DNA of 64,000 nt from Polytrichum commune (lineage: Eukaryota > Streptophyta > Polytrichopsida > Polytrichales > Polytrichaceae): the NCBI GenBank assembly GCA_950295325.1, contig OX485809.1, positions 33,046,001 through 33,110,000 on the forward strand, given 5' to 3'. The notes under the pieces were generated by a model. It was not told the DNA's origin, did no database searches, and saw nothing but the letters and a program-made list of their open reading frames with translations. Of the stretch, positions 41,456 to 47,573 are shown piece by piece. Numbering within the stretch: position 1 is the stretch's first letter; each line of letters opens with the position of its first letter. Made by a program: the position numbers and the translations under genes.

Positions 41456-44400
41456 TCATCGAGAACACTGAAGCCAAGACATCAATTTTCGACAGAATTG
41501 ACTCAAACGTTTGCCCATGGATAACTTCACCTCTTTGACCTCCCTTGTCCCGCAAATATCAATTTCCTCCAACATTGTCACAAAGGACTTATCGACAGGC
41601 TTTGGTATCTCCTTCAAGCCTTGACACCCATTTAAGTTGAGGGAGGTCAAGGAGGTCAAGTTACCCAACGCCTCCGGTATCTCCTTCAAGCCTTCACACC
41701 AACTTAAGTCGAGGGAGGTCAAGGAGGTCAAGTTACCCAACGCCTCCGGTATCTCCGTCAAGCCTTCACACCATCTTAAGTCCAAGGAGATCAAGGAGGT
41801 CAAGTTACCCAACGCCTCCGGTATCTCCTTCAAGCCTTTACACCCACTTAAGTTGAGGGTGGTCAAGGAGGTCAAGTTACCCAACGCCTCCGGTATCTCC
41901 TTCAAGCCTTCACACCAACTTAAGTCAAGGGAGGTCAAGGAGGTCAAGTTACCCAACGCCTCCGGTATCTCCGTCAAGCCTTCACACCATCTTAAGTCCA
42001 AGGAGATCAAGGAGGTCAAGTTACCCAACGCCTCCGGTATCTCCTTCAAGCCTTTACACCCACTTAAGTTGAGGGTGGTCAAGGAGGTCAAGTTACCCAA
42101 CGCCTCCGGTATCTCCTTCAAGCCTTCACACCAACTTAAGTCGAGGGAGGTCAAGGAGGTCAAGTTACCCAACGCCTCCGGTATCTCCGTCAAGCCTTCA
42201 CACCATCTTAAGTCCAAGGAGATCAAGGAGGTCAAGTTACCCAACGCCTCCGGTATCTCCTTCAAGCCTTCACACCAACTTAAGTCGAGGGAGGTCAAGG
42301 AGGTCAAGTTACCCAACGCCTCCAGTATCTCCGTCAAGCCTTCACACCATCTTAAGTCCAAGGAGATCAAGGAGGTCAAGTTACCCAACGCCTCCGGTAT
42401 CTCCGTCAAGCCTTCACACCATCTTAAGTCCAAGGAGATCAAGGAGGTCAAGTTACCCAACGCCTCCGGTATCTCCTTCAAGCCTTTACACCATCTTAAG
42501 TTGAGGGAGGTCAAGGAGGTCAAGTTACCCAACGCCTCCGGTATCTCCTTCAAGCTTCCACACCCACATAAGTGGAGGTAGGTCAAGGAGGTCAAGTTAC
42601 CCAACGCCTCCGGTATCTCCTTCAAGCCTTCACACCAACTTAAGTTGAGGGACGTCAAGGAGGTCAAGTTACCCAACGCCTCCGGTATCTCCTTCAAGCC
42701 TTCACACCCACTTAAGTCGAGGGAGGTTAAGGAGGTCAAATTACCCAACGCCTCCGGTATCTCCTTCAAGCCTTTACACTTCCATAAATCAAGGGAGGTC
42801 AAGGAGGTCAAGTTACCCAACGCCTCTGGTATCTCCTTCAAGCCTTCACACCCACTTAAGTCGAGGGAGGTTAAGGAGGTTAAATTACCCAACGCCTCCG
42901 GTATCTCCTTCAAGCCTTTACACTTCCATAAATCAAGGGAGGTCAAGGAGGTCAAGTTACCCAACGCCTCCGGTATCTCCTTCAAGCCTTCACACCCATT
43001 TAAGTCGAGGGAGGTTAAGGAGGTCAAATTACCCAACGCCTCCGGTATCTCCTTCAAGCCTTTACACTTCCATAAATCAAGGGAGGTCAAGGAGGTCAAG
43101 TTACCCAACGCCTCTGGTATCTCCTTCAAGCCTTCACACCCACTTAAGTCGAGGGAGGTTAAGGAGGTCAAATTACCCAACGCCTCCGGTATCTCCTTCA
43201 AGCCTTCACACTTCCATAAATCAAGGGAGGTCAAGGAGGTCAAGTTACCCAACGCCTCGGGTATCTCCTTCAAGCCTTCACACCCACTTAAGTTGAGGGA
43301 GGTCAAGGAGGTCAAGTTACCCAACGCCTCTGGTATCTCCTTCAAGCCTTCACACCCACTTAAGTCGAGGGAGGTTAAGGAGGTCAAATTACCCAACGCC
43401 TCCGGTATCTCCTTCAAGCCTTCACACTTCCATAAATCAAGGGAGGTCAAGGAGGTCAAGTTACCCAACGCCTCGGGTATCTCCTTCAAGCCTTCACACC
43501 CACTTAAGTTGAGGGAGGTCAAGGAGGTCAAGTTACCCAACGCCTCCGGTATCTTCTTCAAGCCTTTACACTCACTTAACTCAAAATAAGTCAACATGTT
43601 TAAGTTGCCTATGGTGCTTGGTAGGGATCGCAAATTTTTGCAACTTCTTATTCTCATTTTGTATAAGAATTTCAATTGTCCAATACTATCACTAATATCA
43701 TATAGAGTAGATACGCCTTCAATCACCAAAATTTGCAAATTTATGTGATTGTCCCATTTGAACATAAATGGATTTGAGGTCATTTCAAAATGAGGATTTG
43801 ATTGGCAAATCACCATTAAACAGTGGAGATTTTTGGATTGATTCAAAAAAATTTCAAATGACATTGAACCCTCAAAACCTTGAAATCCAAAAAATCGAAG
43901 CGAAAACAAAGGTATTTCCACGTCAAAGTGTTTTTGAAACTCCTTCGTTGGTTCATTGAAAGAAAGACATTCAATACGCTCCATAACGTTTCGTGTTTTC
44001 CCACTCCATGTTGCTTTTTGTATTTTCCACCATCGAGTACCAATATACATGGGGTTTGTTTCCACAATCATACGTCCCATATCTCGTAATTGTTCATGGA
44101 CCTCATAGATTCCATCTTTGTCAATCTTAACCAAAGATTTATCTTCCAGACGTTTCAAAGACTCTTCAGCATTTTTGTTGACATTTCTCCATAAACATGA
44201 TGAGCTCACAATTTCTAATGTATCCATTGGGACCAAATCTTTGCTGAAATAACAACATAGGTCCAAGAACAAATTCTTTTCTTCTTGGGTAAGGTCATCG
44301 AAGCTTATCCGTAGACAATGCCAAACCTCATTGTTATTTTCCAATCCCAAGGCTCTTGCCCTTTGTAGTCTTTGCAAAGCTCGCACCCAAATGCGTAGTC

Positions 44401-45046
44401 TCTTGAATCCATACAATGTTCCACCCACAACCTTCAAGCTCAAAGACAACCCTTTACATGCATCTACAATATTCTCGACGATGTCCACCATATGAGATGG
44501 TGTTTCATATCCTTGATCACCAAAAGCATGCCTCGAGAATAATTTCATAGCTTCCCCTTTGATGAGTTCATCCAAATCTACACGACCAACATCTCCGAGG
44601 TGTTCCACAAGGTGCCAATCACGAGTTGTGATGATCATTTTGTTAGTGCGCTTGGCTTTAAAGATTTCAACATCCATCAATTCATGAATTTGTGTACTAC
44701 TGCCAATGTCATCAAGAACAATGAGAGTTCTTTTATTTGTGATTGTTTCACAAAGATGGGTCTTTGCTTCTACAATGTTTTTCACATCATCAACATTTGC
44801 CCCCAAGTTGTTCAAAATTTCTTTGAATATCTCGATATTGCCACAATTTTCGTTCTTCATGAAAGTAAAGCTAAAAGCTTCAAAACAACCACACATGCAC
44901 TCCATCACAGTTTTGGCCAATGTAGTTTTGCCCATTCCACCCACCCCTATAATGGCCACTATAGAGTGTTTCTCCAATGCCTTCATGACCCCTGGGATTC
45001 TTTCTTGGGAACCAACAAACTCGTTTCTTTGCATTTGCGTCCCCAT
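41456..45046 (-). CDS. NB-ARC-LRR immune-receptor-like protein (NLR)
   Basis: A 1196-residue frame without introns. The NB-ARC ATPase switch module is complete: P-loop GVGGMGKTT (34-42), kinase-2 TLIVLDDIG (107-115), RNBS-B MIITTRD (137-143), GLPL-equivalent CKGLSLSLK (197-205), RNBS-D-like LFLDLCCYF (259-267) and an MHD-equivalent written VHE (316-318). A few irregular LRRs follow, then 27 almost identical 24-residue LRRs (about 503-1150) of pattern LGNLTSLxxLxLxxCxGLxE, then a short basic tail. There is no TIR, RPW8 or coiled-coil domain in front. Instead the kinase gene at 45165-46589 ends 118 bp upstream on the same strand, so the two may be one receptor split by a stop and frameshift or joined by splicing. 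By family knowledge it would act in pathogen detection and cell-death signalling. The ligand is unknown. Confidence 0.88.
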   Translation of the reverse strand: MGTQMQRNEFVGSQERIPGVMKALEKHSIVAIIGVGGMGKTTLAKTVMECMCGCFEAFSFTFMKNENCGNIEIFKEILNNLGANVDDVKNIVEAKTHLCETITNKRTLIVLDDIGSSTQIHELMDVEIFKAKRTNKMIITTRDWHLVEHLGDVGRVDLDELIKGEAMKLFSRHAFGDQGYETPSHMVDIVENIVDACKGLSLSLKVVGGTLYGFKRLRIWVRALQRLQRARALGLENNNEVWHCLRISFDDLTQEEKNLFLDLCCYFSKDLVPMDTLEIVSSSCLWRNVNKNAEESLKRLEDKSLVKIDKDGIYEVHEQLRDMGRMIVETNPMYIGTRWWKIQKATWSGKTRNVMERIECLSFNEPTKEFQKHFDVEIPLFSLRFFGFQGFEGSMSFEIFLNQSKNLHCLMVICQSNPHFEMTSNPFMFKWDNHINLQILVIEGVSTLYDISDSIGQLKFLYKMRIRSCKNLRSLPSTIGNLNMLTYFELSECKGLKKIPEALGNLTSLTSLNLSGCEGLKEIPEALGNLTSLTSLDLWKCEGLKEIPEALGNLTSLTSLDLSGCEGLKEIPEALGNLTSLTSLNLSGCEGLKEIPEALGNLTSLTSLDLWKCEGLKEIPEALGNLTSLTSLDLSGCEGLKEIPEALGNLTSLTSLDLWKCKGLKEIPEALGNLTSLTSLDLNGCEGLKEIPEALGNLTSLTSLDLWKCKGLKEIPEALGNLTSLTSLDLSGCEGLKEIPEALGNLTSLTSLDLWKCKGLKEIPEALGNLTSLTSLDLSGCEGLKEIPEALGNLTSLTSLNLSWCEGLKEIPEALGNLTSLTYLHLCGCGSLKEIPEALGNLTSLTSLNLRWCKGLKEIPEALGNLTSLISLDLRWCEGLTEIPEALGNLTSLISLDLRWCEGLTEILEALGNLTSLTSLDLSWCEGLKEIPEALGNLTSLISLDLRWCEGLTEIPEALGNLTSLTSLDLSWCEGLKEIPEALGNLTSLTTLNLSGCKGLKEIPEALGNLTSLISLDLRWCEGLTEIPEALGNLTSLTSLDLSWCEGLKEIPEALGNLTSLTTLNLSGCKGLKEIPEALGNLTSLISLDLRWCEGLTEIPEALGNLTSLTSLDLSWCEGLKEIPEALGNLTSLTSLNLNGCQGLKEIPKPVDKSFVTMLEEIDICGTREVKEVKLSMGKRLSQFCRKLMSWLQCSR
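41597..43540 (-). repeat. 27-unit, 72-bp tandem repeat encoding LRRs
   Basis: Twenty-seven head-to-tail 72-bp units encode 24-residue LRRs. The downstream third is a 216-bp higher-order repeat (three LRR types RWCEGLTE / SWCEGLKE / SGCKGLKE repeated three times, 41597-42244). The upstream part alternates two types (WKCxGLKE / SGCEGLKE) as a 144-bp repeat (about 42677-43468). Because 72 is divisible by three, gain or loss of units keeps the frame. The complementary strand is also open for 314 codons twice (41637-42581 and 42645-43589). Confidence 0.95.
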
Positions 45047-45164
45047 TGTGCTCCATAGTATCTATTGTTGGTAGAATATTCTCACTAGTTTCTTGAGTTT
45101 GAGGCATGCTGGACTTGTCAATCTTCACAACATGGTTCATATTGATTGAAGCATTCAAATGAAG

Positions 45165-46589
45165 TTAATGCTTAATTTGGCAAAGCCTCGAACAAATATC
45201 TTGAAAGGTTGGCCTTTCTAATGGTTCAAAAGACCAACAGTCTTTGATCAAAGATGTTAATGACTCGGGACAATCGGGAGGCAACCTTGGCCTCTCTCCA
45301 GCTTGCATCCTTTCTTTGACCTTGGATCTCTCACCTTGCGAGAATGGAGTCACCTTCGTGAGAATGTAAGAACACACCATGGCAAAGCTAAATACGTCAC
45401 TTTTGAAAGCATTCACATGAAGTTTCAATAGATCATCAAATCTTGAAAATGTCTCTGGTGCCCTAAACCCGGTCGTACCTAGATTATGGGATGTTGGCTC
45501 TTCGTATGCATCTTGTGCTTCAATTTTTGAAATTCCAAAGTCCACCAATTTAACTTTCATGTAGCCTATGGAATCCAATATGGAATCATTCAAGGAGCTC
45601 ACAAGTATATTATTGGGCTTCAAGTCACGGTGTGCAACATTCATGTCATGGAGATAGAGCATTCCGCTTGCAATTTGGAACATGACATCAACGACAACAA
45701 GATTAGATCGTTGCAAATCAACGTTCTTCTTGTCTACAACTGCAAGATTTCTCTCCATCTTCTCCATCACTATATATCGCCATTTGCCATCATGGTCATA
45801 TCCTTCACCACAACATATGAACTTAACAATGTTTGGATGACTCAACCCTGCTAAGATACCCGCTTCTTTCTTGAAGTTTTCATACGCTTTATCATCATAA
45901 CGAATGTCAACCGCTTTAAGAAACTTCATTGCCAATTCCAAGCCGAAGCAATTTGTTTTGTATACTTGTCCACAAGCACCGCCTCCCAACCGAGTTGATC
46001 GTTCAAGAATCTGGTTGTATGTTGGAAATGTTCCATAATTCAACTCAACGCCTTCTCCTTGCATTAGACAAACCAACCGGTCGTAAGCATACTTTGCAAC
46101 TTCCTCATCCTTCAAGGACTTTGTTGCATCAATATGTTTCAACAATTGTATGACCAATGCCTTTCGGTCTTTCTCCACTTCTGTAATATTGATCGGATTG
46201 AAATCTATGGACTTTCGAAGGCCCATGGTCATTATCCCCAATGTTTGGAATTGCTCACACAATGTATTGAAAACATAATTGAGCTCTTCAAGCAATTCAC
46301 GAAACTCCTCTTCATTATTCATCTGCCACAATGATGCATGGATCCAATCGTCCCTGCCGCAATCTTGGATTAATGCCTTGATTTTACAGACAACTCGATA
46401 TAAATCCTCCATATTTGGTCCAAGCTCCAGTTTGTGATGAGCTTGTCGAACCAAAGTCTTGAAATATTCTACAACAAGATTCGATATGATTTCTAAATGC
46501 AAACATTGTTTTGCATTCAATAAAATTTTCTTTTGATCCAATTGCTCCAATTTTTTTGAGCACTCCATAAATAACAAGGAGTTGTCCAT
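45165..46589 (-). CDS. Protein kinase with helical N-terminal domain
   Basis: 474 residues. Residues 1 to about 130 are predicted from composition as an all-helical bundle without recognised motifs, comparable to the helical N-termini of moss kinase-NBS-LRR proteins and of MLKL-like proteins (inference). The kinase domain is intact: glycine loop LGGGACGQVY (201-210), lysine 222 in AMKF, catalytic HRDLKPNN (320-327), DFG 350-352, APE 377-379 and a conserved C-lobe ending near 470. This suggests an active serine/threonine kinase of the tyrosine-kinase-like group. The stop TAA is followed in the same frame by about 30 further codons with linker character (MNHVVKIDKSSMPQTQ), leading up to the NLR start in another frame. 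A membrane segment and signal peptide are absent, so the product is probably cytoplasmic. Confidence 0.88.
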   Translation of the reverse strand: MDNSLLFMECSKKLEQLDQKKILLNAKQCLHLEIISNLVVEYFKTLVRQAHHKLELGPNMEDLYRVVCKIKALIQDCGRDDWIHASLWQMNNEEEFRELLEELNYVFNTLCEQFQTLGIMTMGLRKSIDFNPINITEVEKDRKALVIQLLKHIDATKSLKDEEVAKYAYDRLVCLMQGEGVELNYGTFPTYNQILERSTRLGGGACGQVYKTNCFGLELAMKFLKAVDIRYDDKAYENFKKEAGILAGLSHPNIVKFICCGEGYDHDGKWRYIVMEKMERNLAVVDKKNVDLQRSNLVVVDVMFQIASGMLYLHDMNVAHRDLKPNNILVSSLNDSILDSIGYMKVKLVDFGISKIEAQDAYEEPTSHNLGTTGFRAPETFSRFDDLLKLHVNAFKSDVFSFAMVCSYILTKVTPFSQGERSKVKERMQAGERPRLPPDCPESLTSLIKDCWSFEPLERPTFQDICSRLCQIKH

Positions 46590-47573
46590 GATGCAATACT
46601 TGCCACACGCCCCTCAAATATATCTACTTTATAAAACCTTGATTCCAAAGGAATTTGTATTACAAAGGAAGTTTGAAGGATCATATAATCATCTGCACAT
46701 CCAAGCCAAAAGTCAAAAATAATAATGCACCTCCATGTACTACACACTTGTATCAACTTATTGTATGCAACATATATTACATTCGTCAAAATCAAATCTA
46801 GGATTTAAGAATAAAATGATGTATTCTTAAAGATCCTCCTTACTAGTTCCAACGCTATATAGTCTACCAGGGAACATACACAGCTTAATCACTTCATGTG
46901 ATAAACATGTTTGTAACATAATCTAGGACGTTAAATGATCTTGGGCAACCTAGATTTTCTACATTTATAGAAGATATTAAGGTGTTAAGAAACCTTCATA
47001 AACCATTCATACAATATAATCCACTTTTACATCTTATGACACTTACAATAAATCGGTCACAACAAATTACAGGAAAGTAAAGTAATTTCTTGAGCGAAGG
47101 GAAATTTAGATCACTTTTTACACCACAATGTTCTCATGGGAACTACATGGTGACAATCACATCAACAGCATCCGTTGCAGGATAAACAAGTGTAGCAGAA
47201 AGACTTGAATGGTTACAAACATTAATCAAGTAGAGCATGGTTGAGAATCTGAAGGTTAAATGAAGAGAAGCATCAAGCACAAAATGCAGGAAGCAATTAT
47301 ACCTCTGAAGAATAGAGTCAGGTAACATCGGAAGGGATTTGTCACTTGACCTGCATTCTGACCTCGAAGGTACCATCACAAAGATGTACTTGAGAAAGCA
47401 GTGGCTCCAGAAAAGTTGAATTTAGATTCTTTATAAGTTTCTATGCCTCATGGCCCTTACAACCTTGGAACCATTCTGTTGGAGGAAAATACACAATGGA
47501 GGTGAAGCACTCCAGTCTTCAAAAAAATCTAAACCACTCGCATCTCCAAATCTGTGAGGTGATTGTCATTGGT
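46590..47573. other. Intergenic, no gene recognised
   Basis: Contains the probable promoter and leader of the kinase gene on the - strand. No other exon or repeat was identified. Confidence 0.45.

Follow-up and report, generated by a model that had tools for sequence, protein, structure and literature searches.

Two open frames at one locus

When a protein kinase and an NB-LRR protein are encoded one behind the other on the same strand in two different frames, are they a pair of genes, or one gene that has come apart? The question is raised by a stretch of 64,000 nucleotides from the moss Polytrichum commune (hereafter the window), which lies on contig C7 of an assembly of 407.8 Mb in 64 contigs. 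According to the original prediction, the two frames could be a single receptor divided by a stop codon and a shift of frame, and three states were considered for it: a recently split fusion acting as a two-gene pair, a receptor joined by an unusual splice, or a broken gene with each half still intact.

On the minus strand, the kinase ORF (46613..45165, with its ATG at 46589) comprises 474 codons and then a TAA at 45167-45165, and the NB-LRR ORF (45061..41456, 1201 codons) has its ATG at 45046-45044 and is closed upstream by a TAG at 45064-45062; the ORF list confirms the positions that had been given for both stops. The first product (45165..46589) consists of an N-terminal region of about 190 amino acids and a protein kinase domain at residues 196-469 (PF07714, 5.3e-42 in Pfam). 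The second (41456..45046, 1196 codons plus the stop), as delimited by the ORF, Pfam and the C-termini of related copies, begins with NB-ARC (PF00931, 1.3e-30), followed by a long LRR array matched by LRR families of Pfam, and its C-terminus resembles those of L001, L004, L005 and L023. Beyond its TAA the kinase frame continues open across a linker-like stretch, and, across about 5 kb, the two halves contain no other stop. Between 41456 and 43700 there is a long run of near-alike LRR units (EALGNLTSLTSLDL...), where long open frames also occur on the opposite strand.

Upstream of the kinase, about 430 bp (46590..47018, minus strand) belong to a 5′ flank common to the family, 96% identical to that of L002. 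In the window copy the shared flank ends at about 47018, apart from a 39-bp block further up that matches L002 and L004. Among L001, L002, L004, L005 and L023 the shared flank extends over 744-962 bp, and L001, L005 and L023 mutually share about 955 bp, while L003 has just about 157 bp in common.

The linker is coding in the sister copies

Sister copies were collected with a search using the start of NB-ARC, in which 150 of 392 candidates were scored. These comprised the window itself, 24 copies at 81-95% identity, one at 76% (L054), 12 at 55-59% and 112 at 29-38%. All 24 close copies (L001-L024), nine of the 12 members of the second clade (L025-L033) and three of the 112 distant ones (L034-L036) were fetched; L054 was also examined and stands outside the counts of 23 given below, and L022 was left out of the linker count since its linker is interrupted. 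In all of the 23 fetched close copies whose kinase and NB-ARC lie at normal spacing, an open linker joins the two domains in a single frame; it has 50 codons in 22 copies and 47 codons in L006. The linker-like codons that had been noticed past the TAA are thus the remains of a genuine coding linker, and all 23 support the proposal that a stop and a frame change divided a single receptor. Moreover, L001, L004 and L005 are free of stops from the start of the kinase to the C-terminus of the family. The same arrangement extends to the second clade, 53-57% identical in NB, where the kinase end and NB-ARC share one frame in 9/9 fetched copies and the ORFs reach up to 3,674 codons.

Taken as a family, these are intron-less kinase-NB-LRR genes of two clades distributed on C2-C7. 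The length of the ORF varies greatly among copies, and the number of LRRs probably does likewise. Many relatives at 29-43% identity are also present on C2-C7, with their kinase and NB-ARC matches mostly in separate, shorter ORFs.

Private lesions in the linker

In the window the former linker between kinase and NB-ARC (45026..45167, minus strand) measures 142 nt, against 150 nt in all but one of the 23 close copies, the exception having 141 nt. The TAA at 45165..45167 is private to the window and stands in the place of GAA (glutamate) in 23/23 of them, so that in the alignment a G>T at linker position 1, private within the clade of seven copies described below, turned the glutamate codon at the kinase end into a stop. 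Furthermore, an 8-bp deletion at 45023..45028, whose exact breakpoint is ambiguous, pushed the NB-LRR part out of frame. The bases deleted are GAAAGGAG in L001, L003-L005 and L023, and a second GAAA adjoins them; slippage between the GAAA repeats may have caused the loss. Neither the TAA nor the deletion occurs in any of the 23 close copies. The apparent NLR start, ATG at 45044..45046, is new as well: it results from a private G>T at 45045 and reads AAG in 23/23 close copies. It has A at -3 and G at +4, the bases by which a start context is counted as favourable. Both tidy frames of the window therefore go back to three private changes within 142 bases.

The pattern could be dismissed if the junction had been misread or misassembled, which we regard as very improbable. 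Two lesions of different kinds, together with five other private substitutions in the linker, resemble ordinary divergence, and there is no near-identical second copy that might have been collapsed or mis-joined: a search of the assembly with the junction DNA gave 27 matches, of which the window itself is 100% identical and the next best 89%, making mis-assembly of a second copy unlikely. Of the remaining matches, 22 extend over the full 201-base query, and every one of these is 209 bases long. Within the seven-copy clade, six linker substitutions are private to the window (that of the ATG included) and, by a like count, six to L004, against one to three for each of the others. It should be noted that the linker is only about 3% of the gene by simple arithmetic, and two lesions plus a new ATG falling there would be a coincidence under random decay, which counts mildly against the reading that we prefer.

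Sequence constraint and the possibility of a pair

In the kinase tree the window, L001-L005 and L023 make up a clade of seven (support 100/100), and in the NB tree the window groups with L001-L005 (100/99), L023 being placed outside with weak support. Substitutions in the kinase were counted over 23 rows including the window, with L020 and L022 omitted, and those in NB over 14 rows, namely the window and the 15 of 24 loci that had been extended, minus L006 and L019, which end early. In the set of seven, the nonsynonymous/synonymous counts of codon differences private to the window are 9/8 in the kinase and 8/5 in a stretch of 399 codons that reaches from NB-ARC into the LRRs. The pooled values for L001-L005 are 27/16 in the kinase and 18/20 from NB to LRR, so that the totals of 17/13 for the window and 45/36 for the five have the same proportion, while the broken copy L023 has 20/8 plus a stop in the kinase and 29/10 from NB to LRR (49/18 in total). 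L023 thus shows more change, although the separate branching of its NB part also has to be taken into account. For the window, 17/30 differences are nonsynonymous, below the roughly 80% expected from sites, although its branch includes the time before the break. The kinase dN/dS between the window and L001-L005 is 0.40-0.50, compared with 0.36-0.60 among those five; the corresponding NB values are 0.29-0.37, at or just above the upper end of the 0.19-0.35 found among the five. Judged from these substitutions, the halves of the window show no sign of long neutral drift, and this lack of excess amino-acid change suggests that either the gene broke only recently or constraint still acts on its halves.

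The latter would be expected if the locus were a recently split, working two-gene pair, in which the stop frees the kinase, the new ATG starts a free NB-LRR protein and both cooperate. Both frames are open at full length, the ATG of the NLR is private to the window and is in frame with it because of the 8-bp deletion, and the substitution pattern matches that of L001-L005. However, the arrangement is found in 0/23 close copies, there is no sign of a separate promoter, and the ATG would lie about 1.5 kb into any shared transcript. Private changes also hit conserved motifs: P194S converts GLPL, uniform in the other 13 rows, into GLSL within NB-ARC (44400-45025), possibly a mark of relaxed constraint, and the kinase of the window has HRDLKPNN where the eight other copies listed have DN or EN. 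We thus consider a functioning pair quite unlikely. That a single receptor is being caught in the act of turning into a two-gene system, with a stop, a well-placed start and a deletion leaving two clean, still constrained frames, appears about as unlikely.

Paired NLR genes such as RPS4/RRS1 and RGA4/RGA5 offer a comparison. The window locus resembles them in having two neighbouring ORFs of immune-receptor type, but here the two lie on the same strand, derive from one former gene, give no indication of two promoters, and only one of them is an NLR.

An intron across the junction

A protein could still be made in one piece if an intron across the TAA and the frame change were spliced out. Kinase-NBS-LRR fusions had been cited as a described class in mosses, and indeed such a class, PNL (protein kinase-NBS-LRR), is reported by Xue et al. 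2012 (PMC3352924), where it is described with phase-0 introns at the kinase/NBS and NBS/LRR boundaries. The same class is called Pkn-NLR in Chia et al. 2024 (PMC11218826). The three distant relatives examined (L034-L036) all have a phase-0 intron between kinase and NB-ARC, with a phase-0 donor (AGAAG/GTAAGAAC) 123 nt past the kinase and a phase-0 acceptor ahead of NB-ARC. In the window itself, 44 of the 240 GT-AG pairs tested across the junction would restore the frame, and among the pairs listed the donors at 45334 and 45353 score 5/7 each.

Against this stands the state of the linker in the relatives, where it is protein-coding without a break. The coding frame has a stop in none of the 22 linkers of 150 nt, while the other two frames have stops in 22/22 and 19/22, and the pooled pN/pS is 0.66 over the same number of linkers (22, L006 being omitted because its linker is 9 nt shorter). 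Moreover, the donors near the linker are weak and the better ones lie well inside the kinase domain, as far as the 12 of 44 pairs listed and the 10 that restore the frame from a donor at 45300 or lower are concerned; all of the latter have poor donors. If 45334 or 45353 were used, the kinase domain would be cut short at about residue 413-419, and most of the listed acceptors would take away the start of NB as well. In addition, the 8-bp shift would persist if the intron were one that the in-frame relatives also have and its end lay upstream of the deletion. The unusual splice considered in the original prediction thus has only a very small chance of being right.

Since the family has an intron-free, coding linker and the intron is present in 3/3 distant relatives, the boundary intron was apparently lost in the family of the window, perhaps via a cDNA intermediate. 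The window copy follows the PNL class in its order of N-terminal kinase, central NBS/NB-ARC and C-terminal LRR, and the genome likewise holds many incomplete copies. It differs in that its three domains are not in one gene, being separated by the TAA and the frameshift, although the kinase end, the linker and NB share one frame in the 23 close copies. The phase-0 intron at the kinase/NBS boundary is missing from the fetched copies of the family, whose linker is continuous open sequence, and that at the NBS/LRR boundary is missing from the window copy, in which NB-ARC and the LRRs share the single 1201-codon ORF.

A probable broken gene in a family with frequent lesions

Taken together, the window gene is best explained as a single kinase-NBS-LRR gene of an intron-less family that was inactivated in its linker, probably recently, and we put the probability of this at roughly 80%. 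Among the three options first considered, the broken gene with individually intact halves fits best, given the in-frame linker of the close copies. Inactivating lesions set against unbroken relatives are what marks a pseudogene, and the locus has two of them. In the unbroken gene, by analogy with its class, an activated LRR/NB-ARC sensor would cluster or release the N-terminal kinase module to signal. In the broken one, the outcome would be a truncated kinase protein, or loss of the mRNA to nonsense-mediated decay, because about 3.7 kb would trail the stop; decay of an mRNA is expected when a long 3′ tail follows its stop. Translation of the NB-LRR half would probably be poor or nil.

Damage is not confined to the window. 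Stops within the kinase are found in L007, L023 and L030, the kinase frame is damaged in L020, L029, L054 and L055, and the ORFs of L006, L011 and L019 end inside or just past NB-ARC. In L029 and L030, which belong to the second clade, the lesion is further up in the kinase though the kinase end and NB share a frame. In L022 the kinase is about 15 kb off on the same strand (C6:3348592-3350010), since its kinase-NB linker has likewise been split, by an insertion of about 15 kb; AGCACAAGGGGG flanks the inserted DNA at either end, in the manner of a target-site duplication. The ends of this insert (C6:3348300-3348700 and C6:3333000-3333300; L052/L053) are similar to each other, rich in GAGAGCGG and opposite in orientation, like those of a DNA transposon. 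In Physcomitrella, according to Xue et al. 2012 (PMC3352924), only 6 of 45 PNL genes have all three domains and 39 are shortened. Because lesions are so frequent across the family, decay is favoured over a pair, and the window gene is most likely a further decaying copy in a large family rather than a new kind of receptor pair. A search of the literature on split or pseudogenised NLRs in mosses brought up no such case by title, from which we do not claim its absence from print.

The kinase half and its possible likeness to MLKL

In a phmmer search of the PDB with the kinase half, the two best matches were 6lba and 6ka4, labelled 'Protein kinase family protein' and 'F22L4.1 protein', which we take to be Arabidopsis MLKL proteins. 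With a family profile of 14 sequences, 6lba again came first, an EGFR entry ranked ahead of 6ka4 (third), and a second stretch of 6lba on the N-terminal part was weak (16.6 bits, i-Evalue 0.023). The first 190 residues gave three Pfam matches at E up to 10, all below the cut-offs, and structure prediction of the kinase half from the window protein alone yielded a mean pLDDT of 36, too poor to test the fold. Kinases are recognised as catalytic by the HRD and DFG motifs, the glycine loop and the lysine, all of which look intact here.

The intact motifs would be in line with a locus where only the kinase half functions, as a truncated kinase by itself, and the NB-LRR half is dead sequence. Chia et al. 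2024 (PMC11218826) report that a kinase domain from P. patens, when expressed by itself in Nicotiana benthamiana, elicited a response that was modest yet variable. But a lone kinase would leave no reason for the NB-LRR frame to remain open, and the long 3′ tail speaks against it as well, so that this, too, is decidedly unlikely beside the inactivated single gene.

MLKL is described as a pseudokinase in the same paper (PMC11218826). Plant MLKL-type proteins thus differ from the window kinase, whose motifs look catalytic, and from the sister copies, in which the kinase module is joined to an NLR. It is possible, on the evidence of sequence likeness, that an MLKL-like module has been fused to NLRs in this family. 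Such a module driven by an NLR sensor would be an attractive model, and may suggest a testable link in non-flowering plants.

With these results, the candidate 'split receptor' becomes a case of birth and death within a moss-type kinase-NLR family, and the more useful by-product is the intron-less kinase-NLR family itself.
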